Below are positions 5,363 to 19,992 of a stretch of 64,000 bases of DNA, piece after piece. The position numbers and the translations under genes were made by a program. Below the pieces are notes generated by a model. It had not been told where the DNA came from. It ran no database searches and saw only the letters and a program-made list of their open reading frames with translations. The stretch is from Candidatus Nanopelagicales bacterium. GTDB lineage: Bacteria; Actinomycetota; Actinomycetes; S36-B12; CAIYMF01. Where the stretch lies: the NCBI GenBank assembly GCA_017848795.1, contig JAFIHG010000030.1, forward strand, positions 1 through 64,000, in the 5' to 3' direction. Positions within the stretch are counted from its first letter, which is position 1, and every line of letters begins with the position of its first letter.

Positions 5363-7840
5363 GTGATCGCGTCCGCGCCCGCCGCTCCCTGCACCGCCCG
5401 GGGCGGCCCGCGCCGGGTCCTCACCGTGTCGGCGGACATGGGCGGCGGCCACAACGCCACGGCGTCCGCGCTGGAGGCGGAGGTCCGCGAGCTGTGGGCC
5501 GGCTCGGAGGTCCGCCGGGTCGACACCCTCGACGTGCTGGGACCGGGCATCGGCCCGCTGTTCCGCGCCATCTACGTCTCCAACGTCGAGAGCACGCCCT
5601 GGCTCTACGAGTTCTTCTACGCCTCGCTGTGGCGTCACCGCTGGTTCGCGAACGCCTCCAAACGCTTCACCGGGAGCTGGGCCGGGCGCCGGCTGGCCCG
5701 GCAGATCGACCGGTTCGACCCCGACCTGGTGCTCTCCACGTATCCGCTGGGGAGTGCGGGGCTGGCCTGGTTGCGCCGGCACCGCGGGCTGCGGGTGCCG
5801 ACCGCGGCGTACATCTCCGACTTCGCCCCGCACCCGTTCTGGGTCCACGCGGACCTGGACGCGAACTTCGTCATGCACGAGGTCGCGGTGCCGACCGCCC
5901 GGGCGGCCGACCCGCGCGCGCTGGTACGGGTCAGCGCACCCCCGGTGGTACGCGACTTCGCTCCCGGCGACCGCGCGGACGCGCGCCGCGAGCTGGGACT
6001 GGAGCAGGACACGTTCGTGGTGCTCGTGTCCTGCGGGGCGTACGCCTTCGGGGACGTCCGCCGCACCGTCGACGCGCTGCTGGACGCGTCCCCCACGGTG
6101 CACGTGGTCGCCGCGTGCGGCCGCGACGAGGCGACCCGCGCGACGCTCGCCGCGCTCGGCCACCCACCGACCCGGCTCACCGCACTCGGCTGGACCGACC
6201 GGATGGCGAGCTATGTGCAGGCGGCCGACCTCGTCGTCTCCAACGCCGGGGGCGCGAGCGCCCTCGAGAGCATCACGGCCGGCCGGGCGGTGCTGATGGC
6301 GCGGCCGATCGCCGCGCACGGCACCGCCAACGCCGACCTGATGGTCGTCGCCGGCCTGGCGCAGTACTGCGCCACCGAGGTCGAGCTCGCCGCGTACGTA
6401 CGCGCCGCCGTCGCCGACCGCTCGGAGCTGCAACGCCTCGAGGGACGGGCCCGGACGCACGTCACGACCCACGACCTGCGCACCGGGCTGTCCCGCCTCG
6501 CGACGCCGCGGGGCCGGCGCGCACCCCGTCCGCGCCGCGCCTGGCCGATGCGGCCGGCGGACGCGTTCTTCTCCCATGTCGAGACCCCGGAGCTGCTGCA
6601 GGAGACCGGCACCGTCCTCGACCTGGACGACGTCTCGCCCGGGCAGCCGCTGACGCTCGACGCGCTGCGGGCCGAGATGGCCGCGCGCCAGGCGGGACTG
6701 CCGCCGATGCGCCGGCGGTTGGTCCGCGGGCGGCGGCCGGGCTGGTTCGTCGAGGACGAGGTCGACGTGGCGCGAAGCATCGACGAGGTCCTCCTCGACG
6801 GGCGCGAGCCCGGGCAGACGATCGACAGCGTGGTGGACGGCGTCTGGTCGCGCCCGCTGCCGGAGGGCGGGCCGGCGTGGGCCATGACCCTGATCCGGGA
6901 CCGCGCCGCCGGCCGGACCGCGCTGGCGATCAAGCTCCACCACTGCGCGGGCGACGGCATCAGTGCCCTGGGGCTGCTGGACCGCCTGCTCACCCCGGTC
7001 GACGGCGACGCGCTCGCCGAACGCGGCCGGGCGGTCTCGCGGCAGGCGGGCGCCCCCACCGCCGCCCGGCTGGCGCGGGACGCGGCCCGCCAGGCGGGCG
7101 CCGTCGGCGCGGGCGTGTGGAGCCTTGCCACCCGCGGTCGTCCGGCCCGCGCCGCGCTCAACCGGCCGGTCTCCGGCGCCGCCCGGGTGCTGGTGCGCGT
7201 CCCGCTGCTGGGCGACGAGTTCCGCGGGGTCGCGCGGGCGCGCGGCGTCCACGCGTACGAGCTCACGCTCGCCCTCGTCGCCGACGCGTTCGGGCGCCTG
7301 CTGCCCGCAGCCGGGCTCGCCGCCGCCGACGAACCGCTGCGGGCGATGTTCCCGATCGCGATGCGCCCGCCGGTGCTCGACCGGGTCTTCGGGAACTGGA
7401 CGGGTTCGGTCGCCCTGGACCTGCCGATCGCCGCCATGGCCGCATCCGACCGGCTGCATGCGGTGCGCCACGAGTTGCGCCGGCGGGTCGCGCGTGGGGA
7501 GCCGCAGGGCGGCAGTGCGGTGATGCAGGCGGCGGGCTACCTGCCTACCGCGCTGCACGGCCGGCTCGCCCGCCTGGTCTACAACCGCTGCTTCTTCAAC
7601 ACGATCGTGTCCTACATGTCCGGTGCCCGAGGCCCGCGCTGGTGCGCCGGCGCTCCGGTGCGCGCGTACTACCCGGTCGTCCCGCTCGCCGACCGCGTGC
7701 CGCTCACCGCGGGGCTGGTCCTCGGGAGCGGCACCGCCGGCATCGGGGTGTTGATGGACCCGGTGCTGGGGCTGGAGCGTGACCACGTCGCCGCGGCGGT
7801 CCAGGAGGCCTATGCGACATTGCGGTCCGGGAGCGGCTGA
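5363..7840 (+). CDS. glycosyltransferase (MGDG synthase/GT28-like) fused to WS/DGAT acyltransferase
   Basis: 825 aa from GTG 5363. Residues 1-385 look like an MGDG-synthase/MurG-type glycosyltransferase: SADMGGGHN at 23-31, TAAYISDFAPHPFWVH in the N-lobe, and a sugar-nucleotide loop SNAGGASALES near 293-303. After a basic linker, residues 395-825 look like a wax ester synthase/diacylglycerol acyltransferase with an intact catalytic HHxxxDG (HHCAGDG, 526-532) and a C-terminal YPVVPLADRVPLTAGL region. One continuous frame spans both with no stop. The likely role is a membrane-associated enzyme that glycosylates and acylates a lipid; substrates are unknown. It is divergent from priA and runs into a DMT transporter gene and an SDR gene. 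GACAAT six bases before GTG may be a leaderless -10. Confidence 0.85.
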   Translation: MIASAPAAPCTARGGPRRVLTVSADMGGGHNATASALEAEVRELWAGSEVRRVDTLDVLGPGIGPLFRAIYVSNVESTPWLYEFFYASLWRHRWFANASKRFTGSWAGRRLARQIDRFDPDLVLSTYPLGSAGLAWLRRHRGLRVPTAAYISDFAPHPFWVHADLDANFVMHEVAVPTARAADPRALVRVSAPPVVRDFAPGDRADARRELGLEQDTFVVLVSCGAYAFGDVRRTVDALLDASPTVHVVAACGRDEATRATLAALGHPPTRLTALGWTDRMASYVQAADLVVSNAGGASALESITAGRAVLMARPIAAHGTANADLMVVAGLAQYCATEVELAAYVRAAVADRSELQRLEGRARTHVTTHDLRTGLSRLATPRGRRAPRPRRAWPMRPADAFFSHVETPELLQETGTVLDLDDVSPGQPLTLDALRAEMAARQAGLPPMRRRLVRGRRPGWFVEDEVDVARSIDEVLLDGREPGQTIDSVVDGVWSRPLPEGGPAWAMTLIRDRAAGRTALAIKLHHCAGDGISALGLLDRLLTPVDGDALAERGRAVSRQAGAPTAARLARDAARQAGAVGAGVWSLATRGRPARAALNRPVSGAARVLVRVPLLGDEFRGVARARGVHAYELTLALVADAFGRLLPAAGLAAADEPLRAMFPIAMRPPVLDRVFGNWTGSVALDLPIAAMAASDRLHAVRHELRRRVARGEPQGGSAVMQAAGYLPTALHGRLARLVYNRCFFNTIVSYMSGARGPRWCAGAPVRAYYPVVPLADRVPLTAGLVLGSGTAGIGVLMDPVLGLERDHVAAAVQEAYATLRSGSG

Positions 7841-7841
7841 C

Positions 7842-8738
7842 GTGGCGGCGGTGACGCTGGTGGCGGCCGTACCGCTCGCGCTGGGCGCGGCGGGCTCGTT
7901 CGGCGCCGCCGGCTTCATGCAGCACCGCGCCGCCCGGCACGTCCCGCGCACCGGGCCGTTGCAACCCAAGCTGCTGCGCGAGCTCGTGGCGGTGCCGCTG
8001 TTCCGCTGGGGCATCGTGTGCAGCGCCGTCGCGTTCGTGCTGCAGGTGATCGCGCTCTGGCTGGCACCGCTCGCGGTCGTGCAGCCGCTGCTCGTGACCG
8101 GTGTGCTCTTCTACCTCGGGTTCGCGTCGTGGGTGCTGGGACACCGCCCGGACCGGCTCATCACGACCGGTGCGGCCATCGCGGTCGCCGGCATCGCCGT
8201 GTTCGTCGTGTTCGCCGGCCCGGCGGCCGGGACCAACCGGTTCTCCGGGACCGCGGCGCTGCCGCTCGGCATCGGGCTGGTCGCCGTCGTCGTCGCGGCG
8301 CTCGCGATCGCGGTGCGCGTCCCCGGGGAGTACCGGGCGTTGCCCTTCGCCGCGGCCACGGCCGTCTGCTACGGGGTCACCGCCGGGCTGCTGCGCGGGC
8401 TGCTGACCTCGCCGGACCTCACGATGGTGTGGCGGGACTGGCAGCTGTACGCCGTCCTCGTCGTGGCTCCCGCCGGATTCCTGCTGAACCAGAACGCGTT
8501 CCAGCGCGGCGCGGTGGGGTCGGTCGCGGTCGCAGTGATCACCGTGGGCGACCCGGTCGTGTCCATCGGCGTGGGGGCCGCCTGGCTGGGCGAGTCGCTC
8601 GCGGGCGGGGCACTGCACCGGACGCTGCAGGTGCTCGCGCTCGTCGCGATGGCGGTCGGCATCGCGCTGCTCGCCCGGCGCGCCCAGCAGGTCGCGGACC
8701 AGGTGAGCAGGATCGACGAGCCGGCGGGCGCCGCGTGA
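7842..8738 (+). CDS. multi-pass DMT-family (NIPA-like) membrane transporter
   Basis: 298 aa from GTG 7842, which follows the preceding stop by one base and has GGGAG eight bases upstream. ATG 7812, inside the previous gene with AGGAGG only three bases away, is the alternative. The protein is almost entirely hydrophobic, with about nine or ten membrane helices. It shows the family pattern in which an early helix is followed by FMQHRAAR, then LAPLAVVQPLLVTGVLFY. DMT proteins export or import small metabolites or ions; this one's cargo cannot be told. Its tight coupling to the lipid-modifying fusion and an SDR suggests it moves a lipid precursor or product, which is inference. Confidence 0.8.
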   Translation: MAAVTLVAAVPLALGAAGSFGAAGFMQHRAARHVPRTGPLQPKLLRELVAVPLFRWGIVCSAVAFVLQVIALWLAPLAVVQPLLVTGVLFYLGFASWVLGHRPDRLITTGAAIAVAGIAVFVVFAGPAAGTNRFSGTAALPLGIGLVAVVVAALAIAVRVPGEYRALPFAAATAVCYGVTAGLLRGLLTSPDLTMVWRDWQLYAVLVVAPAGFLLNQNAFQRGAVGSVAVAVITVGDPVVSIGVGAAWLGESLAGGALHRTLQVLALVAMAVGIALLARRAQQVADQVSRIDEPAGAA

Positions 8739-9484
8739 GGCTCCGCGGCGCCCGCGCGCTGGTGACGGGCGGGTCCTCGGGCATCGGCGCCGCGACCGCG
8801 ACCGCACTGGCCGCCCGGGGTGCCCGGGTCGTGCTCGTCGCCCGGGACGCCGATGCGCTGCGCGCCCGGGCGCGGGAGCTCGGCGGTGAGGCCAGGGCGG
8901 CGGACCTCGCCGAGCCGGCGCAGGTGCACCGGCTCGCCGCCGACCTGCTCGCCACCGGCGTTCCCGACGTCCTCGTACTCTGCGCCGGGATCGGCTTGCG
9001 GGCAGCGGCCGAGGACACGACCGACGAGCAGGTCGCCGGTCTGCTGCAGGTGAACTTCCGCGCACCGGTGCAGCTGGTCAGCGAGCTGCTGCCGGCGATG
9101 CGCGCCCGGCGCCACGGCCATCTGGTGTTCGTCGGCTCGATCGCCGGCGTGCTAGGGGTTGCGCAGGAGGCGGCGTACGCCGCGTCGAAGGCCGCGCTGG
9201 ACGCATACGCGGCGAGCCTGCGCGTCGAGCTCGCCCGGGTCGGCGTGCGCGTCACGACGCTCGTCCCCGGCGCTGTCGACACCGCGTTCTTCTCCCGGCG
9301 CGGCCCGGCGTACGCGCGGCGCTTCCCCCGGCCGGTCGCGCCCGGGCTGGTCGCGCAGCGGCTGGTCGACGGCATCGAGCACGAGCGTGCCGAGGTCGTG
9401 GTGCCGCGCTGGCTGCGCGTCGCCGTCGCCACTCGCGCGCTCGCGCCCGAGCTCTACGCACGGCTCGGGTCGCGCTTCGGTTGA
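8735..9484 (+). CDS. short-chain dehydrogenase/reductase (SDR)
   Basis: 249 aa from GTG 8735, overlapping the transporter stop by 4 bp (GTGA). The Rossmann nucleotide-binding motif TGGSSGIG is near residue 11, CAG replaces the usual NAG, and the catalytic Ser plus YxxxK is present (GSIAGV, then YAASKAAL). The C-terminal part (LVPGAVDTAFFSRRGPAY) is typical of classical SDRs acting on fatty, keto or sterol-like substrates. It ends 18 bp before the convergent end of hpnH. Its position as third gene of the lipid cassette suggests reduction of an acyl or keto lipid intermediate, but the substrate is not shown. Confidence 0.88.
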   Translation: MRLRGARALVTGGSSGIGAATATALAARGARVVLVARDADALRARARELGGEARAADLAEPAQVHRLAADLLATGVPDVLVLCAGIGLRAAAEDTTDEQVAGLLQVNFRAPVQLVSELLPAMRARRHGHLVFVGSIAGVLGVAQEAAYAASKAALDAYAASLRVELARVGVRVTTLVPGAVDTAFFSRRGPAYARRFPRPVAPGLVAQRLVDGIEHERAEVVVPRWLRVAVATRALAPELYARLGSRFG

Positions 9485-9502: not shown

Positions 9503-10510
9503 TCAGGACGTGAAGGCCCGCAACGACTCCCGCAGCGAGCTCGTCGTGGCGAGGACCGCGGTGGGTTCGTAACCGCAGTGCGCCATGCAGTTCGCGCACC
9601 GTGGGTCCTTGCCCCGGCCGAAGCTGTCCCAGTCGGTCGTGTCGAGCAGCTCCTGGTAGGTCTTCGCGTAGCCGTCGGCGAGCAGGTAGCACGGTCGCTG
9701 CCAGCCCAGCAGGGAGTAGCTCGGGATGCCCCACGGCGTGCACGCGAGGTCGCGCTTGCCCTCGAGGAAGTCGAGGAACACCTCGGAGTGGTTCAGCCGC
9801 CACCGTTTGCGGTTGCCGTCGGCGAACGCCTTGTGGAACAGCTCCCGGGTCTCGCTGACGCCCAGGAAGTGCTCCTGGTCGGGTGCCTTCTCGTACGCGT
9901 ACGCTGGGGAGACCATCATCTGGTCGACCTGCAGCTCGTCGTTCAGGTAGTTCAGCACGTCGATCACGCTCTGCGGGCTGTCGGTGTTGAACACGGTGGT
10001 GTTGGTGGTGACCCGGAAACCCTTGTCCTTGAGCCAGCGGATCGCCTCGACCGCCTCGTCGAACACGCCCTCCTTGCGCACCGAGGCATCGTGCCGCTCG
10101 CGCATCCCGTCCAGGTGGATGGTGAAGCCGAAGTAGTGCGAGGGCCGGAAGTCGAAGCGGTCCCAGCGCTGGCGCAGCAGCAGCGCGTTGGTGCAGAGGA
10201 AGACGTACTTCTTGCGTGCCACCAGCTCGTTGACCATCTTGTCGATCTGCGGGTGCATCAACGGCTCCCCGCCGGCGATCGACACCATCGGGGCGCCGCA
10301 CTCCTCGATGGCGGCCACCGCCTGCTCCACCGGCATCCGGCGGCGCAGCTCGTCGGCGGGCTGCTGGATCTTGCCGCACCCGGCGCACGCCAGGTTGCAG
10401 GCGAACAGCGGTTCCAGCTCCACGAGCAGCGGGAACTTGTCCCGCCGCCGGATCTTCTGGACTGCAAGGTATCTCGCGATTCGCAGGCTCTGTCGTATCG
10501 GCATGCTCAC
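9503..10510 (-). CDS. hpnH: adenosyl-hopene transferase HpnH (radical SAM)
   Basis: 335 aa, close to the family length. GTG 10510 overlaps the upstream stop (GTGA) and AAGGAGG lies ten bases upstream; ATG 10504 is an alternative. The radical-SAM cluster motif CNLACAGC gives Cys38, Cys42 and Cys45, followed by SIAGGEPLMHP. Further cysteines lie near the C-terminus (CTPWGIPSYSLLGWQRPC, CANCMAHCG). HpnH joins a 5'-deoxyadenosyl radical to diploptene, making adenosylhopane, the first side-chain step of bacteriohopanepolyols. It is the last gene of the hopanoid operon, directly after the hpnG-ispH fusion whose N-terminal half should act on its product. Confidence 0.95.
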   Translation of the reverse strand: MSMPIRQSLRIARYLAVQKIRRRDKFPLLVELEPLFACNLACAGCGKIQQPADELRRRMPVEQAVAAIEECGAPMVSIAGGEPLMHPQIDKMVNELVARKKYVFLCTNALLLRQRWDRFDFRPSHYFGFTIHLDGMRERHDASVRKEGVFDEAVEAIRWLKDKGFRVTTNTTVFNTDSPQSVIDVLNYLNDELQVDQMMVSPAYAYEKAPDQEHFLGVSETRELFHKAFADGNRKRWRLNHSEVFLDFLEGKRDLACTPWGIPSYSLLGWQRPCYLLADGYAKTYQELLDTTDWDSFGRGKDPRCANCMAHCGYEPTAVLATTSSLRESLRAFTS

Positions 10511-12021
10511 GACACGCGCACCTCCTTCGGGACGGTGAAGTGGACGTCTTCGGTCGTGACGGTCCGGTCGGTCACCCGGACCGGACCAAGTCCCCCGAGC
10601 GCGGACACCAGCTCGTCGACCAGCGCGGGCGGCGCGGACGCACCGGCGGTGACCCCGACGGTGCGCACCCCGGCCAGCCAGTCGAGGTGGATGTCGGTCG
10701 CGTCGTTGATGAGCCGCGCTGGTCGTCCGAGCCGTTCGGCGAGCTCGACAAGGCGGTTGGAGTTGGAGGAGTTCTCCGACCCGAGCACGAGGACGAGCTC
10801 GGAGTCGACGGCGACCGCCTGCAGCGCGCGCTGGCGGTTCGTCGTCGCGTAGCAGATGCCATCCGAGCTCGGGGCGCGCAGCTTGGGGAACCGCTCACGC
10901 AGCACGTCGACCACGCGTGCCACGTCGTCGGCCGAGAGCGTGGTCTGCGTCTGGTACGAGACCCGGTCCGGGTCCGGCACCTCGACCCGCTCGGCGTCCG
11001 CGACGTCCTGCACCAGCAGCGTGCGGCCGGCCCGCTCGTTCATGGTGCCGACCGTCTCCTCGTGCCCCTCGTGCCCGATGAACAGCACCGTGTCGCCACC
11101 GTCGGCGTAGCGACGCACGTCGGCGTGCACCTTGGACACCAGCGGGCACGTCGCGTCGATCACGGTCAGTCCGCGGGCGGCTGCCTCGGCGCGCACCGCC
11201 GGAGCGACGCCGTGCGCGGAGAAGACGACGCAGCCGCCCGCGGGCACCTCCTCGAGCTCCTCGACGAAGACGGCCCCGCGCCGGCGCAGGTCCTCCACCA
11301 CGTGCACGTTGTGGACGATCTGCTTGCGTACGTAGATGGGTGCCCCGCGCTGGGCGAGCGCGAGCTCCACGACGTCGATGGCGCGCACGACGCCCGCGCA
11401 GAACGAGCGGGGGCCGGCGAGCAGGACCTCGCGCTCCCCGGCCGCGCGGCCCCAGGCGCTCAGGGCGGGCCCGGTCCGGGCCAGGGTGCGCAGCGCGGTC
11501 CGCAGCCGGCCGAGGGTGGCGGGCCGCAGCAGCGGCGACGACGCGGTGTCGGCGACGACCCGCACGGCGCACACGTACGGGGTGGGCGCGCCGGTGAGCA
11601 GCCAGGCCGTCTCCATGTCCACGCAGAGCGCCCCGCCCGCCGCGTGGGCGGCGCGGCCGTGGCCGGACACCACGTGGCCGGAGCTGGTGACGGCCCCGAG
11701 ATGGACGGTCAACCCGGCGCGGCGCAGCTCGCCCGCGAGCAGCGGGGCGCTGGGGCAGCCGACGCTGCCCTGCGGCCCGCGTACCTCCGTCGCGACGACG
11801 ACGTCGCCCGCGCGCAGGTCGGCACGCAGCGCCCCGGCGATCCCGGCGACGGCCACCGCGTCGGCGCCGTGCACCGGCGGACGACCGGCGGCGCGGCGCG
11901 CGGCGGCGGGTCCGACACCCGTGCGCAGCACCGTCCCGGGGGGCATGCCGGACGTGAACGCCCGCGCCTCCCAGCGGGAGGGGACGCAGGTGACGAAGCG
12001 GGTGCTCACGTGGGGTCCCAT
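10507..12021 (-). CDS. ispH: fused HpnG-like nucleosidase/phosphorylase and IspH
   Basis: 504 aa in one frame. ATG 12021 has AAGGA six bases upstream and overlaps shc by 16 bp; GTG 12009 is an alternative. Residues 1-195 match the hopanoid-associated phosphorylase (HpnG/PNP_UDP fold): AVAGIAGALR, then GGALCVDMETAWL. Residues 197-504 are a complete 4-hydroxy-3-methylbut-2-enyl diphosphate reductase. The three cluster cysteines are present (Cys208 in GPRSFCAG, Cys292 in DATCPLVSK, Cys390 in DGICYATTNRQ), as is SENSSNSNRL. HpnG removes adenine from adenosylhopane to give ribosylhopane; IspH makes IPP and DMAPP. The two activities stand at opposite ends of the pathway, so the fusion probably reflects co-expression more than channelling. 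Confidence 0.92.
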   Translation of the reverse strand: MGPHVSTRFVTCVPSRWEARAFTSGMPPGTVLRTGVGPAAARRAAGRPPVHGADAVAVAGIAGALRADLRAGDVVVATEVRGPQGSVGCPSAPLLAGELRRAGLTVHLGAVTSSGHVVSGHGRAAHAAGGALCVDMETAWLLTGAPTPYVCAVRVVADTASSPLLRPATLGRLRTALRTLARTGPALSAWGRAAGEREVLLAGPRSFCAGVVRAIDVVELALAQRGAPIYVRKQIVHNVHVVEDLRRRGAVFVEELEEVPAGGCVVFSAHGVAPAVRAEAAARGLTVIDATCPLVSKVHADVRRYADGGDTVLFIGHEGHEETVGTMNERAGRTLLVQDVADAERVEVPDPDRVSYQTQTTLSADDVARVVDVLRERFPKLRAPSSDGICYATTNRQRALQAVAVDSELVLVLGSENSSNSNRLVELAERLGRPARLINDATDIHLDWLAGVRTVGVTAGASAPPALVDELVSALGGLGPVRVTDRTVTTEDVHFTVPKEVRVS

Positions 12022-13937
12022 GGCCGGTCCTTCAGGCAGCGCGCGAGCGCGCTCACGGGAAACACCTGTCGGTACAGGTGGTAGTTGATGTAGAAGTCGC
12101 CGGGGAAGCCGGTTCCGGTGAACTGCGGCTCGTCCCACGTGCCGTCCGGACGCTGCTGGCGCACGAGCCACCGCACCCCACGCTGCGCCGGTGCCGCACC
12201 GGCCGCACCGGCGGCGTGCAGTGCGAGCAGCGCCCAGGCGGTCTGCGAGGCCGTCGAGGCTCCCCGCCCCACCCAGGTCGGGTCCTGGTAGGAGCGCAGG
12301 TCCTCGCCCCACCCGCCGTCGGCGTTCTGGTGCGCCACCAGCCACCGCACCGCGCGCTGCACCGGTGCCGCGTCGCGCGCGAGCCCGGCGGCGACGAGCG
12401 CGGGGACGACGGCGCCCGTGCCGTACACGTGGTTGGCGCCCCAGCGGCCGAACCAGGAACCGTCCGGCTCCTGCGCGGCGAGCAACCACCGCACGCCGCG
12501 CTGCGCGGGCGTGCTCTGCGCTTCCCCGACCTTGGCGAGCATCTCCACGACGTGGGCGGTGACGTCGGCGCTCGGGGGGTCGATCACGGCACCGAAGTCG
12601 CAGAACGGCAGTTGGTAGGCGAGCTCCCGCGTGTTGTCCGCGTCGAACGCCGCCCACCCGCCGTCGCGGCACTGCATGCCGACGACCCAGTCGACACCAC
12701 GGCGGACCGCGCCCGACCCTGCGCGGCCGGCGGCACGCAGCGCGAGGACGACCTCGGCGGTGTCGTCGATGTCGGGGTAGCCGTCGTTGTCGAACTCGAA
12801 CGCCCAGCCGCCGGGCGCCAGCCCGGGTCGGCGTACCGCCCAGTCGCCACGTACCGCGATCTCCTCGCCCAGCAGCCATTCCGCGCCGGCGCGCATCGCC
12901 GGATGGGACGGGCCGAGTCCGGCGTCCCCGAGGGCGACGAGCGCGAGCGCGGTGTCCCACACCGGGGACTGGCAGGCCTCGATGCGCCGTACCGGGCCGT
13001 CATCGCCCTGCTCCCGGACCGTGAACCGGTCCCAGCCCGCGAGCCCGCGCGCCATGACCGGGTGGTCGAGCGGAAAGCCCATGGCGTGCAAGGCCATCAA
13101 CGAGTACACCCAGGGCGGTTGGATGCCGCCCCAGGAGCCGTCCGCCTCCTGGCGCTCCACGATCCAGTCGCAGCACCGCTGCAACGCTCTGGCACGCAAC
13201 GCCTTCGGTGCGCGGCGCTCGTAGCGGTGCAACAGCGAGTCGAGCGCGATGAAGGCCCGCGCCCAACCGGTGGACGTGGTGTCGTGTGGCAGTTCGCGCC
13301 CCGGTGCCCACAGCTCCGGCACCGCGATCCCGAGATCCCGCTGCGGGCGCAGCGCCGACAGCACCGTCAGCGGGACGATGGTCTGCCGCGCCCAGCAGGC
13401 GAAGTCGTACACGTTCAGCGGCACCCACGGCGGCAGGTGGATGAGCTCGGGCGGCAGCGCCGGCAGGTCGTCCCAGGAGCAGATCCCGAACAGGGCGAGC
13501 CAGATCCGGGTGAACACGCGCGTCCGGCCGAGGCCGCCGTGCTCGCGTACGACGTCGCGGGCGCGGCGCAGGTGCGCGTCGCTCGGCAGGTCCCCCGCCA
13601 GGCGGAGCACGACGTACGCCTCGGCGGTCGTCGACGGGTCGGGCGGTCCCCCACGGAAGTTGGCCCACGAGCCGTCGGCGCGCTGCTGGCTGCGGATCCA
13701 CCGTGCCGAGGACTGCAGCTGCTCGTCGGTGAGCACGCCGAGGAACCGGCGCATCATCACGTCCTCGGCGTCCATCGTCACGTTCGTCTCGAGCTCGCCC
13801 TGCCACCACCCGGCGGCGTCCTGGGAGGCGAGCAGGGTGGCGACGGCGCGGTCCAGCGCCTGCTGCGCGGCGCCGGTCGCGGGGCCCTCCGGTGCCTGCA
13901 GCGTGACGGTCCTGGGTGCACGGTCGGTGAGCGTCAT
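12006..13937 (-). CDS. shc: squalene-hopene cyclase
   Basis: 643 aa, the usual length. ATG 13937 is in an ATGA overlap with the upstream prenyl synthase and GGGAGGG precedes it. The catalytic DxDDTAE motif starts at Asp389 (DIDDTAE). Several QW repeats are visible (for example QDAAGWWQGE, QQRADGSWANF, QEPDGSWFGRWG, QNADGGWGED). The enzyme is a monotopic membrane protein that protonates and cyclises squalene to hopene/hopanol. It is the centre of the operon: upstream genes make squalene, downstream ones add the ribosyl side chain. Confidence 0.97.
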   Translation of the reverse strand: MTLTDRAPRTVTLQAPEGPATGAAQQALDRAVATLLASQDAAGWWQGELETNVTMDAEDVMMRRFLGVLTDEQLQSSARWIRSQQRADGSWANFRGGPPDPSTTAEAYVVLRLAGDLPSDAHLRRARDVVREHGGLGRTRVFTRIWLALFGICSWDDLPALPPELIHLPPWVPLNVYDFACWARQTIVPLTVLSALRPQRDLGIAVPELWAPGRELPHDTTSTGWARAFIALDSLLHRYERRAPKALRARALQRCCDWIVERQEADGSWGGIQPPWVYSLMALHAMGFPLDHPVMARGLAGWDRFTVREQGDDGPVRRIEACQSPVWDTALALVALGDAGLGPSHPAMRAGAEWLLGEEIAVRGDWAVRRPGLAPGGWAFEFDNDGYPDIDDTAEVVLALRAAGRAGSGAVRRGVDWVVGMQCRDGGWAAFDADNTRELAYQLPFCDFGAVIDPPSADVTAHVVEMLAKVGEAQSTPAQRGVRWLLAAQEPDGSWFGRWGANHVYGTGAVVPALVAAGLARDAAPVQRAVRWLVAHQNADGGWGEDLRSYQDPTWVGRGASTASQTAWALLALHAAGAAGAAPAQRGVRWLVRQQRPDGTWDEPQFTGTGFPGDFYINYHLYRQVFPVSALARCLKDRPWDPT

Positions 13938-14956
13938 CGGTCCCTCCCTCGCAGCGCGTCCGCGAGCGTCGTGAGCGCCGCGGCGACGTCCGCAGGGAGG
14001 GCGAGCTCCACCAGCGCGGCCCGGGCCGCGGCCAGCTCGTCGTCGACGCACTGCTCGGTCCAGCGGCGCCCGCCGGCCTGCTGCACGAGGTCGGCGGCGC
14101 GCACCAGCTCCGCCTCGTCGAGCGGCTCGCTGCGGGCGTACAGCTCCTGCAACTGCCGGCCGGCCGCGGTGCCGGACTCCAGCGCCACGACGACCGGCAC
14201 CGAGCGCTTGCGCGAGCGCAGGTCCGAGCGCACCGGCTTGCCGGTGGCCGCGGGCGAGCCCCACAGCCCGAGCAGGTCGTCGGTGAGCTGGAAGGCGAGG
14301 CCGAGGTGGGCGCCGTAGTCGGCCAGCCCGAGGGCGACGCGTGCCGGGCCGTCGGCCAGCACCGCGCCCAGGGAGGCCGCGCATTCCAGCAGTGCGCCGG
14401 TCTTGTCGGCGGCCATCTGCAGGCACTCCGGCACGCTCACGCGTTCGGCGCTCTCGAAGGCGACGTCCTGGGTCTGCCCGGCGATCAGCCGCCGGGTCGC
14501 GCCGGTGAGGGCGCGCACCGCCCAGCCCGCCGTCGGCGAGCCGCTCTCGGCGAGCAGTTCCACCGCCAGGGTCAGCAGCGCGTCACCCGCGAGCACCGCG
14601 GCCGGTACGCCGAAGACCGCCCACGCGGTGGGCCGGTGGCGCCGCTCGCGGTCCCCGTCCATCACGTCGTCGTGGAGCAGCGAGAAGTTGTGCACCAGCT
14701 CGCATGCCGCGGCGGCCGGTACGGCGACCGACAGCGGCGCGCCGACCGCCTGCGCCGAGTGCAGCGCGAGGGTCGCCCGCAACCCCTTGCCGCCGCCCCC
14801 CGTCACGGGCGCGCCCGCGGCGTCCCAGAACCCGAGGTGGTAGCCGCAGACGTGCCGGGTACCCGCATCGAGCCGGTCCAGCGCGGCCCGCATCGCCTCC
14901 GCCACCAGCGGTCGGCCCTCCTCGACCGAGCGCCGCGGGATCGTCGTGGTCGTCAT
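13934..14956 (-). CDS. polyprenyl (farnesyl-type) diphosphate synthase
   Basis: 340 aa. ATG 14956 overlaps the hpnE stop (ATGA). The first aspartate-rich motif is LLHDDVMDGD and the second QLTDDLLGLWG. GGGGKGLRA carries the basic residues that contact IPP. Chain length cannot be set from sequence with certainty, but lying between hpnE and shc in a squalene/hopene operon it most likely makes farnesyl diphosphate, the HpnD substrate. It acts in the cytosol with Mg2+. Overlaps at both ends indicate a single mRNA with coupled translation. Confidence 0.92.
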   Translation of the reverse strand: MTTTTIPRRSVEEGRPLVAEAMRAALDRLDAGTRHVCGYHLGFWDAAGAPVTGGGGKGLRATLALHSAQAVGAPLSVAVPAAAACELVHNFSLLHDDVMDGDRERRHRPTAWAVFGVPAAVLAGDALLTLAVELLAESGSPTAGWAVRALTGATRRLIAGQTQDVAFESAERVSVPECLQMAADKTGALLECAASLGAVLADGPARVALGLADYGAHLGLAFQLTDDLLGLWGSPAATGKPVRSDLRSRKRSVPVVVALESGTAAGRQLQELYARSEPLDEAELVRAADLVQQAGGRRWTEQCVDDELAAARAALVELALPADVAAALTTLADALRGRDR

Positions 14957-16332
14957 GCCGCCACCTGCTCACGTCGTGTGGTGGGCCGGGCCGGGGCGCC
15001 CAGCAGTGCGTCGGCTGCGGCCTCCCCGCTGCGTACCGCGCCCTCGAGGGTGTCCGGCCAGCCGGTGGCGGTCCAGGCGCCCGCGAGCACCAGCCCGGGC
15101 AGCCGCGTCGTCGCCGGTGGGCGCAGCCGCGCCGTGCCCGCCCGCTGGCAGAACGTGGCGCGCGGTTCTCGGGTCACGAACGCGTCGACGACGCGCGCAC
15201 TGCGGATCGCCGGGAGCAGCCGGGACACCGCCGCGAGCTGTACGCGCAGCACCTCGCGCGCGGGCCGCCGCGCGTCCTCGCTCGCGGCGGACACGGAGGT
15301 GACCAGGTACTGCCCGCGCCCATCGCCCGCGTGGATCCCGCTGCTGCGGTCGAAGACCCATTGGGCGGCGGAGTCCGGCGCGGCGAGGAACGGGACGGCG
15401 AGGACCCTGCGGTCGAGCAGCAGGTGGGTGTTGAGGATCGCAGACGCGCCGAGCGCCTCCCAGCGGTCCGCGTCCGGGGCAGCGGCGGGGGGTACGAGCC
15501 GCGCCGCCTGCTCGTGCGGGACGGCGAGCACGACCTGGTCGGCGGCGAGCGAGAACGGGGCCCCGGCAGCGCGCTCCCGTCCGGTGACGGTGAAGCCACC
15601 GCCCTCGTGCACGATGTGGGCCGCCCGCGCCCCGGTGCGCAGCGTGATGCCGAGCCGGGTGAACGCCGCACGTGCCGGCGCGTCGTGCAACGCTGCGAGC
15701 GGCGCCCGCGGCACCCCGATGTCGCCGGCGGCGACGTCGTCGAGCAGCCCGGTGCGGAACACCCGGGCGGCCAGCGCGAGCGAGGCGTGGTCCGCGGCGA
15801 GGTTGAGCGCGGGCACGGTCACCAGGTCCCACAGCAGTCGGCGCGTACGGTCGGTCTGGCCGTGGCGCGCGAGCCAGGAGCCGAAGGTCTCCTGGTCAGC
15901 GGTCGGGTCGAGGGGGTCGACGGTGCGCAGCGCAGCGGCGGCGCGCACGGCGAGCAGCCGTTCGCGGACGGTGAGCGCGCGGTACCCCGCGAGGGCGGGC
16001 AGCAGGTGGGCGGGCGCCGGGCCGCTGCGCCCGCGGCGCAGCCGGGTGCTGCGGCCGTCGCCGTACGCGACCGGCACGTCGAGCCGGTCCTGCAACGGCA
16101 CCAGGTGCGCGACGCCGAGGGTCGCGAGCAGCGCGCGGTAGCGGCGGTAGCAGCGCAGGATGACGTGCTGGCCGTTGTCCGCCGTGAGCGCTCCGCGTTC
16201 GAAGGAGCAGGCGCGCCCGCCCAGCCGCGGCCGCGACTCGAGGACGGTGACCGTGCAGCCGCGCGCCGCCAGCCGCAGCGCGGCCGACAGCCCCGCGACG
16301 CCCGCCCCGACCACGACCACCCGGGTGCTCAT
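14953..16332 (-). CDS. hpnE: hydroxysqualene dehydroxylase HpnE (FAD)
   Basis: 459 aa. The dinucleotide-binding motif VVVVGAGVAGLSAALRLA is at the N-terminus, followed by ESRPRLGGRACSF, typical of phytoene-desaturase-like amine oxidases. The C-terminal part (LPGLVLAGAWTATGWPDTLEG) matches the second FAD contact of the family. HpnE reduces hydroxysqualene to squalene, completing the HpnC-HpnD-HpnE route that replaces a single squalene synthase. ATG 16332 overlaps the hpnD stop by 4 bp. Confidence 0.95.
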   Translation of the reverse strand: MSTRVVVVGAGVAGLSAALRLAARGCTVTVLESRPRLGGRACSFERGALTADNGQHVILRCYRRYRALLATLGVAHLVPLQDRLDVPVAYGDGRSTRLRRGRSGPAPAHLLPALAGYRALTVRERLLAVRAAAALRTVDPLDPTADQETFGSWLARHGQTDRTRRLLWDLVTVPALNLAADHASLALAARVFRTGLLDDVAAGDIGVPRAPLAALHDAPARAAFTRLGITLRTGARAAHIVHEGGGFTVTGRERAAGAPFSLAADQVVLAVPHEQAARLVPPAAAPDADRWEALGASAILNTHLLLDRRVLAVPFLAAPDSAAQWVFDRSSGIHAGDGRGQYLVTSVSAASEDARRPAREVLRVQLAAVSRLLPAIRSARVVDAFVTREPRATFCQRAGTARLRPPATTRLPGLVLAGAWTATGWPDTLEGAVRSGEAAADALLGAPARPTTRREQVAA

Positions 16333-17234
16333 GTCCGCCTCCGCAGCAGCGCACCGGCCGCGACCCGCGCCTTGGCCGCACCCGGCAGCGACAGCCGCCG
16401 GTCGCGGACCAGGTCCGGGTCGGCCGCGATGCGGGAGAGCAGGGCGCGGTAGATGCCGGCCATCGCCGCGGTGCAGGCGGCGCTGCGGCGATCGAGCAGG
16501 GCCAGCAGGGCGAGCCCCTCGTCGTAGCGGCGCTGGGCCCGCGCCGCCTCGTACCGGACCAGCGCGGCGAACGCCGCGGGCGGATCGCTGATCGCGCCGT
16601 CCGGGCCCAGCGCGAGGTGGCAGCCGAAGCGCTGCAGGTCCTGCGCAGGCAGGTAGACGCGCCCGCCCGCCCGGTCCTCGCGCAGATCGCGCAGGATGTT
16701 GGTGAGCTGCAGCGCGACGCCGAGGGTGTCGGCGAGCGGGAAGGCACGATCCAGGTCGGCCGGATGGTAGATCCCCGCCGAGAGCCGCCCGATCGAGCCG
16801 GCGACCTGCCGGCAGTACCCGACGAGCAGGTCGAACGTCTCGTAGCGCCGCCCGTCGACGTCGGCCTGGCAGCCGTCGAGCAGGTCGTCGAAGGCATCGA
16901 GCGGCACCGGGAAGCGGGCAGCGGCGTCCCGCAGCGCGACGAGGACGGGATCCGCGTCGCTCCGCCCTTCTCGCAGATCGTGGACCTGGTCGCGGACTGC
17001 GGTGAGGGCCGCCGTGCGCTCCGCGGTCGATCCGTCGCCATCACCGATGTCGTCGATGCGGCGCGCCAGCGCGTACACCGCCGACAGCGCGCGGCGCTGG
17101 GCGGGCGGGAGCAGCCGGATGCCGTACGAGAAGTTGCGGGCCTCGCGCCTGGTGATCGCCTCGCACACCGCGTAGCCGTGGGCGACCGGGTCGGCGCCGG
17201 CGGCCCGGGGCGTGGTGCGTGCCAGCACGCTCAT
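16329..17234 (-). CDS. hpnD: presqualene diphosphate synthase HpnD
   Basis: 301 aa from ATG 17234, chosen because it forms an ATGA overlap with the hpnC stop; GTG 17243 is three codons upstream. A trans-isoprenyl diphosphate synthase fold is shown by NFSYGIRLLP, the first Asp-rich motif RRIDDIGDGD, and the second motif NILRDLREDRAGGRVYLP. HpnD condenses two farnesyl diphosphates head-to-head into presqualene diphosphate. Both Asp motifs look intact, in contrast to HpnC next door. Confidence 0.95.
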   Translation of the reverse strand: MSVLARTTPRAAGADPVAHGYAVCEAITRREARNFSYGIRLLPPAQRRALSAVYALARRIDDIGDGDGSTAERTAALTAVRDQVHDLREGRSDADPVLVALRDAAARFPVPLDAFDDLLDGCQADVDGRRYETFDLLVGYCRQVAGSIGRLSAGIYHPADLDRAFPLADTLGVALQLTNILRDLREDRAGGRVYLPAQDLQRFGCHLALGPDGAISDPPAAFAALVRYEAARAQRRYDEGLALLALLDRRSAACTAAMAGIYRALLSRIAADPDLVRDRRLSLPGAAKARVAAGALLRRRT

Positions 17235-18103
17235 CCCGGCCACCGGAGCATGCCCTGGACGAACATCGCGGCGATCGCCCGCCTGGTGGGCTTGCGCGGG
17301 GACGGGAACGGCGCGTAGCCCTGGGCGCGGAGCGCCGCGGCGGCGGCGCGACCGCCGGCGACGTAACCGGCGACCGCGAGCCGCGCCCAGCCGTGCAGCG
17401 TGGAGACGAGCGGCGCGCCGGCATCGAGCCAGGCGCGCGCCCGGTCGGTCTCGAACGCGAGGAGCGCCCGCAGCTGCGCCGTACCCGGCCCGGCCAGGTC
17501 CGCGTCGCGCACGCCGAAACGGCGCAGGTCGTCCTGCGGCAGGTACACGCGGCCCGCGCGGTGGTCCTCGGCGACGTCCTGCCAGTGCTCGAGCAGCTGC
17601 AGCGCGGTGCAGATCCGGTTCGACAAGGCGACCCGGTCGGCGTCGGCGCGGCCGACCAGGTGCAGCACGATCTCCCCGACCGGGTCCGCGGACAGCCGGC
17701 AGTACGCGAGCAGGTCCTCGAAGGTGTCGTAGCGGCGGACGGCGAGGTCCTGCCGGTTCGCCGCGACCAGCCGGGCGAGGGGCTCGAGGGGGACGTGCCT
17801 GCGGTGCAGGGTCGGTGCCAGCTGCACGAGTGCGGCGAGCTCGGGCTGCTCGCCGTGCGCGAGGCGCTGCAGGTCGCGGTCGACCGCGTCGAGCTGTTCT
17901 GTGCCGGTGTCCCGGTCCTCCCCGAGGCCGTCGACGAACCGCGCGAACCCGTACAGCGCCAAGAGGTCGTGCCGCAACGCCCCGGGCAGGAACGGCGGGG
18001 CCACGACGAAGTTCTCGCCGTGCACCGCGTCCGGCAGAGCGGGCCGTGGCCGCCCACCCGCGCGCAGCAGGGTGAAGCCGCCTGGCAGGGCAGGAACGCT
18101 CAC
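17231..18103 (-). CDS. hpnC: hydroxysqualene synthase HpnC
   Basis: 290 aa. GTG 18103 overlaps the dxs stop (GTGA). Family features are HGENFVVAPPFLPGAL, RRYDTFEDLLAYCRLSADP, and the second Asp-rich motif WQDVAEDHRAGRVYLPQ. HpnC converts presqualene diphosphate to hydroxysqualene. The first Asp-rich motif, where squalene/phytoene synthases read DDxxD, is here FVDGLGED with only one of the paired aspartates kept. The rest is well conserved and the gene is in full operon context, so it is probably active, but this deviation should be compared with other HpnC proteins. Confidence 0.92.
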   Translation of the reverse strand: MSVPALPGGFTLLRAGGRPRPALPDAVHGENFVVAPPFLPGALRHDLLALYGFARFVDGLGEDRDTGTEQLDAVDRDLQRLAHGEQPELAALVQLAPTLHRRHVPLEPLARLVAANRQDLAVRRYDTFEDLLAYCRLSADPVGEIVLHLVGRADADRVALSNRICTALQLLEHWQDVAEDHRAGRVYLPQDDLRRFGVRDADLAGPGTAQLRALLAFETDRARAWLDAGAPLVSTLHGWARLAVAGYVAGGRAAAAALRAQGYAPFPSPRKPTRRAIAAMFVQGMLRWPG

Positions 18104-19992
18104 GACCGCCGCCGGCTCTGCGCGAGAGCGAGGCCGGACGCCGCGGCTGCCGGCTCCCGGGGCAGCACGACGAGCTCCGGGCCGTGCCCGAGCGGCGCGG
18201 CCGCCTGCGCGATCGTCGCCGCCAGCCCGGTGGCGTCGAGCCCGAAGCGGGTCAGCAGGGCAGCCCGCTCCGCGTGCGGCACGTACTCGGTCGGGAGCCC
18301 GAGGTTGCGCACCGGCACGTCCACCCCGCGGTCGGCGAGCAGCTGAGCGAGCCGTGAGCCGACCCCGCCGGCGCGGACGCCGTCCTCCACCGTCACGACC
18401 AGCCGGTGCCCGGCCGCCACGGCCGCCAGCGCCGGGTTGACCGGCAGCACCCAGCGCGGGTCGACGACGGTGCAGGGCACGCCGTCGGCGGCGAGCAGTT
18501 CAGCGGCCTGCAGAGCGGTCGCCGCCATGACACCGACCGCGACGACGAGCACCCGCGCGTCGGCGTCGGCGCGCAGCAGGTCCAGCCCGCACCAGCGCTC
18601 CACGGCGGGGACCGGTTCGCCCACGGCGGCCTTGGGGAACCGCAGCGCGGTCGGGCCGGTGCGGTGCGACACCGCCTCCGCGAGCTCCTCGACCAGAGAC
18701 TGCGCGTCGCGGGGCGCCGCCACGCGGATCCCCGGCACGTTGCCGAGCAGTGCCAGGTCCCACATGCCGTGGTGGCTCGGTCCGTCCGGGCCGGTGATGC
18801 CGGCCCGGTCGAGCACGAACGTGACCGGGAGCCGGTGGAGCCCGACGTCGAGCAGGATCTGGTCGAACGCCCGCCCGGCGAAGGTCGCGTACACCGCCAC
18901 GACCGGGTGCGCGCCGCCCATCGCGAGCCCGGCGGCGCTCGCCACCGCGTGCTGCTCGGCGATGCCCGTGTCCACGCAGCGCAGCGGGTGGCGCGTCTGG
19001 ACCGGACCCAGGCCGGTGGGGCCGACCATCGCGGCGCTGAGGGCGACGAGGTCGGGGCGCCGGTCCGCCAGGTCGGTCAGCGCGGCGGAGAACGCGTCCG
19101 TCCAGGTCGCTGCCGGCGGCGTCGCCGGCCGGCCGGTGCTGGGTTCGACCTTGCCGACGGCGTGCAGCCGGTCCGCCTCGTCGGTCTCCGCGGGCAGGAA
19201 TCCCAGCCCCTTGCGGGTGCGGCAGTGCACGACGGTGGTGCCGTCGCGGCCCGCCGCGTCGGCGAACGCCGCCTCCAGGGCTGCGAGGTCGTGCCCGTCG
19301 ACCGGCCCGATGTAGTCCAGCCCCAGGCTGGTGAGGACGCCGGCCGGATCCGGTGCGGCCGCCGCAGCACCGCCTCCCAGCCGGGCGAGCAGCGCGGCGT
19401 ACCCGGCGCGGTCGGCGACCCGGTCCAGGTGGTGCGGCAGTCCCCCGACGCTGGGGGCGTACGAGCGGCCGTTGTCGTTCAGCACGACGACGACCCGGCG
19501 GTTCGCGGTACCGAGGTTGTTCAGCGCCTCGTAGGCGAGGCCGCCGGTCAGGGATCCGTCACCGACGACCGCGACAACCGGCCGGCGCTCCCCGGCGAGC
19601 TCGAACGCGTGGCTGAGCCCCGCGGCGTACGAGAGCGCGGTGGAGGCGTGGGAGTTCTCGATGAAGTCGTGTGCCGACTCGGCGCGCGACGGGTAGCCGG
19701 ACAGGCCGCCCGCCTGGCGCAGCGTGGCGAAGTCGGCGGCGCGGCCGGTCAGCAGCTTGTGCACATAGGACTGGTGCCCGGTGTCGAACAGGATCGGGGT
19801 GTGTGGTGAGTCGAATACTCGATGCAGGGCAATGGTTATCTCGACTGCTCCCAGGTTCGATCCGAGATGTCCGCCGCCGCGGCACACATTCGTCACGAGG
19901 AACTCACGGATCTCCGCAGCGAGCGACGCGAGCTCGGTGGCGTTCAGACCGCGCAGCTGTACGGGAGCGGTGAGGGAGGAAAGCACACCCAT
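18100..19992 (-). CDS. dxs: 1-deoxy-D-xylulose-5-phosphate synthase
   Basis: 630 aa, the normal length. ATG 19992 has GGAGG just upstream. Thiamine diphosphate motif GDGSLTGGLAYEALNN is followed by NDNGRSYAPSVGGL; ENSHASTALSYAAGL and the transketolase pyrimidine domain (DTGIAEQHAV) are present. It condenses pyruvate and glyceraldehyde 3-phosphate, the flux-setting first step of the MEP pathway. As first gene of the hopanoid operon it should boost C5 supply specifically for hopanoids; a housekeeping copy may exist elsewhere but is not visible here. Confidence 0.96.
   Translation of the reverse strand: MGVLSSLTAPVQLRGLNATELASLAAEIREFLVTNVCRGGGHLGSNLGAVEITIALHRVFDSPHTPILFDTGHQSYVHKLLTGRAADFATLRQAGGLSGYPSRAESAHDFIENSHASTALSYAAGLSHAFELAGERRPVVAVVGDGSLTGGLAYEALNNLGTANRRVVVVLNDNGRSYAPSVGGLPHHLDRVADRAGYAALLARLGGGAAAAAPDPAGVLTSLGLDYIGPVDGHDLAALEAAFADAAGRDGTTVVHCRTRKGLGFLPAETDEADRLHAVGKVEPSTGRPATPPAATWTDAFSAALTDLADRRPDLVALSAAMVGPTGLGPVQTRHPLRCVDTGIAEQHAVASAAGLAMGGAHPVVAVYATFAGRAFDQILLDVGLHRLPVTFVLDRAGITGPDGPSHHGMWDLALLGNVPGIRVAAPRDAQSLVEELAEAVSHRTGPTALRFPKAAVGEPVPAVERWCGLDLLRADADARVLVVAVGVMAATALQAAELLAADGVPCTVVDPRWVLPVNPALAAVAAGHRLVVTVEDGVRAGGVGSRLAQLLADRGVDVPVRNLGLPTEYVPHAERAALLTRFGLDATGLAATIAQAAAPLGHGPELVVLPREPAAAASGLALAQSRRRS

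Follow-up and report, generated by a model that had tools for sequence, protein, structure and literature searches.

A glycosyltransferase-acyltransferase fusion protein linked to hopanoid biosynthesis genes in actinobacteria

Hopanoids are bacterial sterol-like membrane lipids and long-lived biomarkers. Polycyclic triterpenoid-type membrane lipids are glycosylated and then acylated in the formation of acylated steryl glycosides and of the cholesteryl 6'-acyl-glucoside of Helicobacter. Among hopanoids, the HpnI-HpnK-HpnJ route, which yields BHT-GlcNAc, BHT-glucosamine and BHT cyclitol ether (BHT, bacteriohopanetetrol), glycosylates the C35 polyol after the action of HpnH and HpnG (PMC12583986). 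According to the same paper, the conversion of ribosylhopane to BHT has no established enzyme (PMC12583986). Acylated and glycosylated hopanoids do occur, as illustrated by acylglucosaminyl-BHT in Alicyclobacillus (PMC8537080).

Here, we describe a hopanoid locus in 64,000 nucleotides of an actinobacterial contig (Candidatus Nanopelagicales bacterium, GCA_017848795.1, JAFIHG010000030.1, positions 1 to 64,000; hereafter the window), in which a glycosyltransferase and an acyltransferase are joined in a single protein. The initial annotation of this DNA had recognized the pairing and it was correct in that respect; it had missed the hopanoid cluster, the source of the likely acceptor, which begins 19 bases past the three-gene run that contains the fusion. 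It also knew of no described enzyme with this pairing, and neither a paper on such an enzyme nor a characterized enzyme of the same architecture was found in the literature searched, which covers few subscription journals. Searches on the fusion, on acylated BHT in actinomycetes and on a Frankia ester likewise returned nothing on the fusion enzyme.

The fusion protein and its locus

The features of the locus are listed below with window coordinates and strand.

5363-7840 (+): fusion protein, 825 aa, GTG start to TGA, one open frame
5363-6514 (+): glycosyltransferase half, residues 1-384; Pfam PF06925 and PF04101; fold match to MGD1
6515-6538 (+): Arg/Pro-rich linker, residues ~385-392, as seen in the AlphaFold model; variable length in the alignment
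6539-7837 (+): acyltransferase half, residues 393-825; Pfam PF03007 and PF06974; WS/DGAT fold
7842-8738 (+): DMT-family membrane transporter, 298 aa; NF038012
8735-9484 (+): classical short-chain dehydrogenase (SDR), 249 aa; TGGSSGIG and YAASK motifs
9503-10504 (-): HpnH, adenosylhopane synthase (radical SAM); TIGR03470, 509.7 bits, cut-off 225
10507-12021 (-): HpnG-like nucleosidase fused to IspH; PF01048 and PF02401; TIGR03468, TIGR00216
12006-13937 (-): squalene-hopene cyclase (SHC); TIGR01507, 747 bits, cut-off 431
13934-14956 (-): polyprenyl (FPP-type) synthase; PF00348
14953-16332 (-): HpnE, hydroxysqualene dehydroxylase; TIGR03467, 394 bits, cut-off 283
16329-17243 (-): HpnD-type presqualene diphosphate synthase; TIGR03465, 273.9 bits, just below the cut-off of 278.6
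17231-18103 (-): HpnC; TIGR03464, 270.7 bits, cut-off 250
18100-19992 (-): Dxs, 1-deoxyxylulose-5-phosphate synthase, isoprenoid supply; PF13292
20692-21399 (+): VC0807-family membrane protein, function unknown; NF041646, 95 bits, cut-off 65

The first three genes (fusion, DMT and SDR, plus strand) converge on a complete hopanoid cluster on the minus strand, which begins 19 bases beyond the SDR. The VC0807-family protein accompanies the module in Amycolatopsis and Microlunatus as well. An in-frame HpnG-IspH fusion is also seen at many other hopanoid loci of actinobacteria; HpnG is found without IspH at that position in Streptomyces-type, Kutzneria and Sciscionella loci.

The 825-residue frame lies within a stop-to-stop frame of 1096 codons. 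As the initial annotation had proposed from a GT28/MGDG-type and a WS/DGAT half, the domain search placed all four expected Pfam families above their cut-offs: PF06925 (MGDG_synth; residues 30-173, 52.9 bits, cut-off 25), PF04101 (Glyco_tran_28_C; 219-356, 34.2 bits, cut-off 22), PF03007 (WS_DGAT_cat; 396-636, 68 bits, cut-off 23.6) and PF06974 (WS_DGAT_C; 677-820, 46 bits, cut-off 20.7). The motifs quoted then are also present (MGGGH at residues 26-30, NAGG at 294-297 and HHCAGDG at 526-532). An AlphaFold model, computed from an alignment of 25 fusions (the window protein and 24 homologues), contained two confident domains (mean pLDDT 87.9, pTM 0.84), and between the halves pLDDT fell below 50 at residues 384-388 only.

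The glycosyltransferase half has the features of the GT28 MGDG-synthase/UgtP superfamily, namely PF06925, PF04101, a GT-B fold, the GxGH motif and the NAGG..E loop. In structure comparisons, it matched Arabidopsis MGD1 (4wyi) with a Z score of 30.0 over 316 residues at 22% identity, and MurG (3s2u) with a Z score of 25.9. Residues G27, G29 and H30 of GxGH and N294, G296, G297 and E302 of the NAGG..E loop were invariant in the 25 fusions, and A295 was nearly so. The half missed the equivalog model for diglucosyl-diacylglycerol synthase, NF010135, with 107.5 bits against a cut-off of 500. Relatives with 34-36% identity to this half were detected in another actinobacterial family (L088, 574-2505, and L089, 652-2535, both on the minus strand). 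Their C-terminal part is membrane-anchored, differs from that of the fusion and appears deacetylase-like by eye; that of L088 had no Pfam match, and hopanoid genes were not detected near either relative.

The acyltransferase half was matched by the WS/DGATs of Marinobacter (6chj_A; Z 35.5) and Acinetobacter (7nxg; Z 35.2). In the HHxxxDG motif, H527, D531 and G532 were invariant in the 25 fusions and the first His was present in 24. PLW and ND are motifs conserved in characterized WS/DGATs (PMC4520822, after Villa et al. 2014). The window protein has PAW and YE in their place, and each motif was kept in only one of the 25 fusions; among 15 stand-alone WS/DGATs of the window's order, PLW occurred in 14 and ND in all 15. 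This loss fits a changed acceptor. The window protein (168 bits) and the other fusions (131-174 bits) also missed the TIGR02946 subfamily cut-off of 310 bits. By fold and catalytic motif the half resembles the WS/DGATs, but it is not classed as a strict member of that family. In addition to the fusion, the genome encodes a canonical WS/DGAT (L002) whose PLW and ND are intact. Three Amycolatopsis fusions (L053, at 9590-10095, L046 and L056) contained long repeat-like insertions of APNATLGASG units in the acyltransferase half, which follow the region of the catalytic His and precede the C-terminal domain.

Distribution and association with hopanoid genes

When one genome per species was scanned, 36 loci with relatives were detected. 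Both halves lay within one open frame in 29 of these, all actinobacterial; together with the window they make up the 30 fusion loci considered below. The 24 aligned homologues were 39-56% identical to the window protein over its length, and the glycosyltransferase half was better conserved (53-67%) than the acyltransferase half (28-51%). The frame across 6480-6560, for which a read-level check had been suggested, was checked by base composition and by homology: third-position GC was 0.94-0.97 in each 300-base block from 5363 to ~7760, on both sides of the junction, and the same frame recurred in the 29 independent records. In a tree, the fused acyltransferases formed one clade (support 100/98). 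The fusion was not found in the plasmid records searched. Nor is it a general architecture of the window's order, as 99 relatives yielded matches to the acyltransferase half only.

A hopanoid gene was present in the examined flank of 26 of the 30 fusion loci. The order in which fusion, DMT and SDR converge on HpnH, HpnG(-IspH) and SHC was kept at many of them across unrelated genera, including Arthrobacter, Intrasporangium, Microlunatus, Prauserella, Micromonospora and Kutzneria; Amycolatopsis has a rearranged version. The four exceptions were L036, whose contig stops after the SDR, L047, with HpnH ~22 kb away, and L039 and L066, in which the fusion is away from the hopanoid cluster and HpnH is elsewhere in the genome.

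Co-occurrence was also seen at the level of whole genomes. HpnH was above cut-off in 20 of the 21 fusion-bearing genomes tested, and in the remaining one (L038) an HpnH start was found at the end of a 5-kb contig. Of 296 genomes sampled evenly across the phylum, 25 had HpnH and only the window genome had the fusion. The corresponding Fisher test gave p ~2e-19, a value that overstates the independent evidence because the loci are related and were reached by one query. Within the window's order, HpnH was above cut-off in one of 60 genomes and the glycosyltransferase half was found in one of 99, in both cases the window genome, suggesting either that the hopanoid locus and the fusion were acquired jointly through horizontal transfer or that this is the one lineage in which they survived.

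The two small genes of the run showed different associations. The DMT gene directly adjoined the fusion in 27 of 30 loci and the gene for a glycosyltransferase alone in all 7 loci with such a gene. In genomes whose fusion has moved away from the hopanoid genes (L039 and L066) or that have a second cluster (L100), the SDR stayed beside or near HpnH, as seen at L094, L095 and L100; the SDR was beside HpnH in L111 and L113 as well. Since the SDR tracks HpnH and the DMT gene tracks the glycosyltransferase, the SDR probably acts in side-chain synthesis and the DMT transporter probably serves the glycosylated product.

Rearrangements in Amycolatopsis separate the components further. Seven Amycolatopsis genomes, all with HpnH, had a stand-alone glycosyltransferase (56-60% identical) and a DMT gene outside any hopanoid cluster; tree support for its placement relative to the fused form, as a split-off or an earlier state, was 48/28. 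In four Amycolatopsis, a PAP2 domain (PF14378) was fused to a WS/DGAT-type acyltransferase (L103, 8954-10987; L105, 9123-11153; L107, 6856-8889; L101, 2527-4581). This gene adjoined the SDR, the DMT gene, the VC0807-family protein and the hopanoid cluster, and the stand-alone glycosyltransferase with its own DMT gene was elsewhere in the same genomes. An acyltransferase of the WS/DGAT fold therefore keeps with hopanoid genes despite a different partner domain. A common origin of the two kinds of fusion was not supported: the PAP2-fused acyltransferases were outside the GT-fused clade in the tree, which shows the PAP2-acyltransferase as an independent fusion.

Proposed function and alternative explanations

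The fusion, its predicted folds, its conserved catalytic residues and its linkage to and co-occurrence with hopanoid genes were shown here. On this basis, we favor, with moderate confidence, a role of the fusion as a bifunctional hopanoid tailoring enzyme, in which a C35 polyol is glycosylated and then acylated to give an acylated hopanoid glycoside; which acceptor and which sugar are used, in what order the halves act and what the transporter and the SDR do is what we infer. By known steps, HpnC, HpnD, HpnE and SHC produce hopene, HpnH yields adenosylhopane and HpnG ribosylhopane, which the SDR would reduce to BHT. With a nucleotide-sugar as donor, the N-terminal inverting GT-B half would then glycosylate a hydroxyl of the C35 hopanoid polyol, most likely BHT. 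The C-terminal half would use acyl-CoA and the His of HHxxxDG to esterify this glycoside, the newly added sugar being the most likely site. The resulting acylated hopanoid glycoside may be flipped or exported by the DMT transporter. The wider proposal, that an undescribed class of bifunctional enzymes makes such glycosides in actinobacteria and that the adjacent SDR and DMT proteins are the missing reductase and transporter, is put forward tentatively.

The absence of the known hopanoid glycosyltransferase bears on this proposal. HpnI was considered as the resident enzyme and rejected: no locus of the window genome matched TIGR03472 at E <= 1e-15, and HpnI was absent from 22 of the genomes under study, the same search scoring 523 bits in a Burkholderia chromid used as control. 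The fusion itself had no match to TIGR03472 up to E 1. Because HpnI is missing and the fusion is the sole PF06925 protein of the genome, no other resident protein is as good a candidate for glycosylating hopanoids.

The chief competing acceptor is diacylglycerol. The glycosyltransferase half could make glycosyl-diacylglycerol and the acyltransferase add a third acyl group to its sugar, the link to hopanoid genes then reflecting joint regulation of membrane-ordering lipids. All characterized relatives of the glycosyltransferase half act on diacylglycerol (MGD1 and UgtP) or, in the case of MurG, on lipid I, and not on hopanoids; the nearest of them, by NF010135 score and by matches to 9wde and 4wyi, are diacylglycerol glycosyltransferases, and diacylglycerol is a WS/DGAT substrate. 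The separation of the fusion from the hopanoid cluster in L039 and L066, and of the stand-alone glycosyltransferase and DMT genes from hopanoid clusters in Amycolatopsis, also count against a hopanoid acceptor, as does the PAP2-acyltransferase, which can be read as converting phosphatidate to diacylglycerol and triacylglycerol and so suits glycerolipid chemistry even beside hopanoid genes. The literature searched likewise yielded no acylated glycoside of a hopanoid from the fusion-bearing genera. However, both halves fall well short of the curated thresholds (107 bits against 500 for NF010135 and 168 against 310 for TIGR02946), the canonical PLW and ND motifs are lost, and a glycerolipid role leaves unexplained why the fusion adjoins HpnH and occurs only in hopanoid producers (all 21 genomes tested, compared with 8% of the phylum). 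We consider a glycerolipid enzyme less likely than a hopanoid enzyme, and the most probable of the alternatives.

Both halves might instead be directed at hopanoids but act on separate molecules, the glycosyltransferase making a glycoside and the acyltransferase esterifying BHT or another hydroxyl, with the fusion merely co-localizing them. The short, variable linker, the absence of any sign of a channel and the separate maintenance of stand-alone glycosyltransferase and PAP2-acyltransferase in the same Amycolatopsis genomes are consistent with this. On the other hand, the fusion persists as a single clade over many genera, favoring coupled steps, and esterified BHT is not reported from fusion-bearing genera in the literature searched; such an arrangement seems improbable.

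The initial annotation had suggested that one lipid is glycosylated and then acylated, which fits the evidence, and had offered a neutral storage lipid as an alternative product, an option now weakened. An enzyme making triacylglycerol or wax ester, with a regulatory or vestigial glycosyltransferase half, would agree with the WS/DGAT fold and intact HHxxxDG motif. The fused acyltransferases have lost both PLW and ND, which the separate canonical WS/DGAT of the genome keeps, and the higher conservation of the glycosyltransferase half and its invariant catalytic residues argue that it is not vestigial, making this explanation very unlikely. Finally, the probability that two genes were joined by a frameshift or assembly error is negligible, as 29 fused homologues share the open frame and third-position GC is steady over the junction.

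Comparison with known systems

Completion of the polar head of hopanoids is poorly assigned outside Proteobacteria, and the locus provides a candidate protein or domain for each of the glycosylation, acylation, reduction and transport steps. Among these, the SDR (8735-9484) is a candidate for the reductase that converts ribosylhopane to bacteriohopanetetrol, and the DMT transporter may be the flippase or exporter of the product. The carriers of the fusion include culturable strains, among them Arthrobacter terrae, Prauserella muralis and Amycolatopsis jejuensis, making each step open to deletion and lipidomics. In addition, the locus could serve as a genomic marker that predicts a lipid class otherwise easily overlooked in soils and sediments.

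The component families are known, but the literature searched describes neither their combination in one protein nor its link to hopanoid genes. With MGD1 and UgtP (YpfP) of family GT28, the N-terminal half shares the GT-B fold along its entire length, GxGH and the NAGG..E loop, but identity is ~20-22%, an acyltransferase is attached, hopanoid genes are linked and the NF010135 score is far under cut-off. The C-terminal half shares its whole fold, HHxxxDG and both Pfam domains with WS/DGATs (AtfA/WSD; 6chj, 7nxg); it differs in the loss of PLW and ND, the score below the TIGR02946 cut-off, the attached glycosyltransferase and its separate clade. Loci L108 and L109, which we take from their gene content to be of Streptomyces type, have HpnC, HpnD, HpnE, FPP synthase, SHC, HpnG, HpnH and Dxs as in the window, with an HpnO-type class-III aminotransferase instead of the SDR; no fusion, DMT or SDR gene was present in the 20-kb stretch read. 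The HpnI-HpnK-HpnJ route likewise glycosylates the C35 polyol but is without an acyltransferase, and its HpnI neither matches the fusion nor occurs here. The proposed product resembles acylated steryl glycosides, including the Helicobacter lipid, in that glycosylation is followed by acylation, but these are made by separate enzymes of other families and from a sterol, not a hopanoid. If the proposal is true, the acylated hopanoid glycoside would correspond in bacteria to the acylated steryl glycosides.
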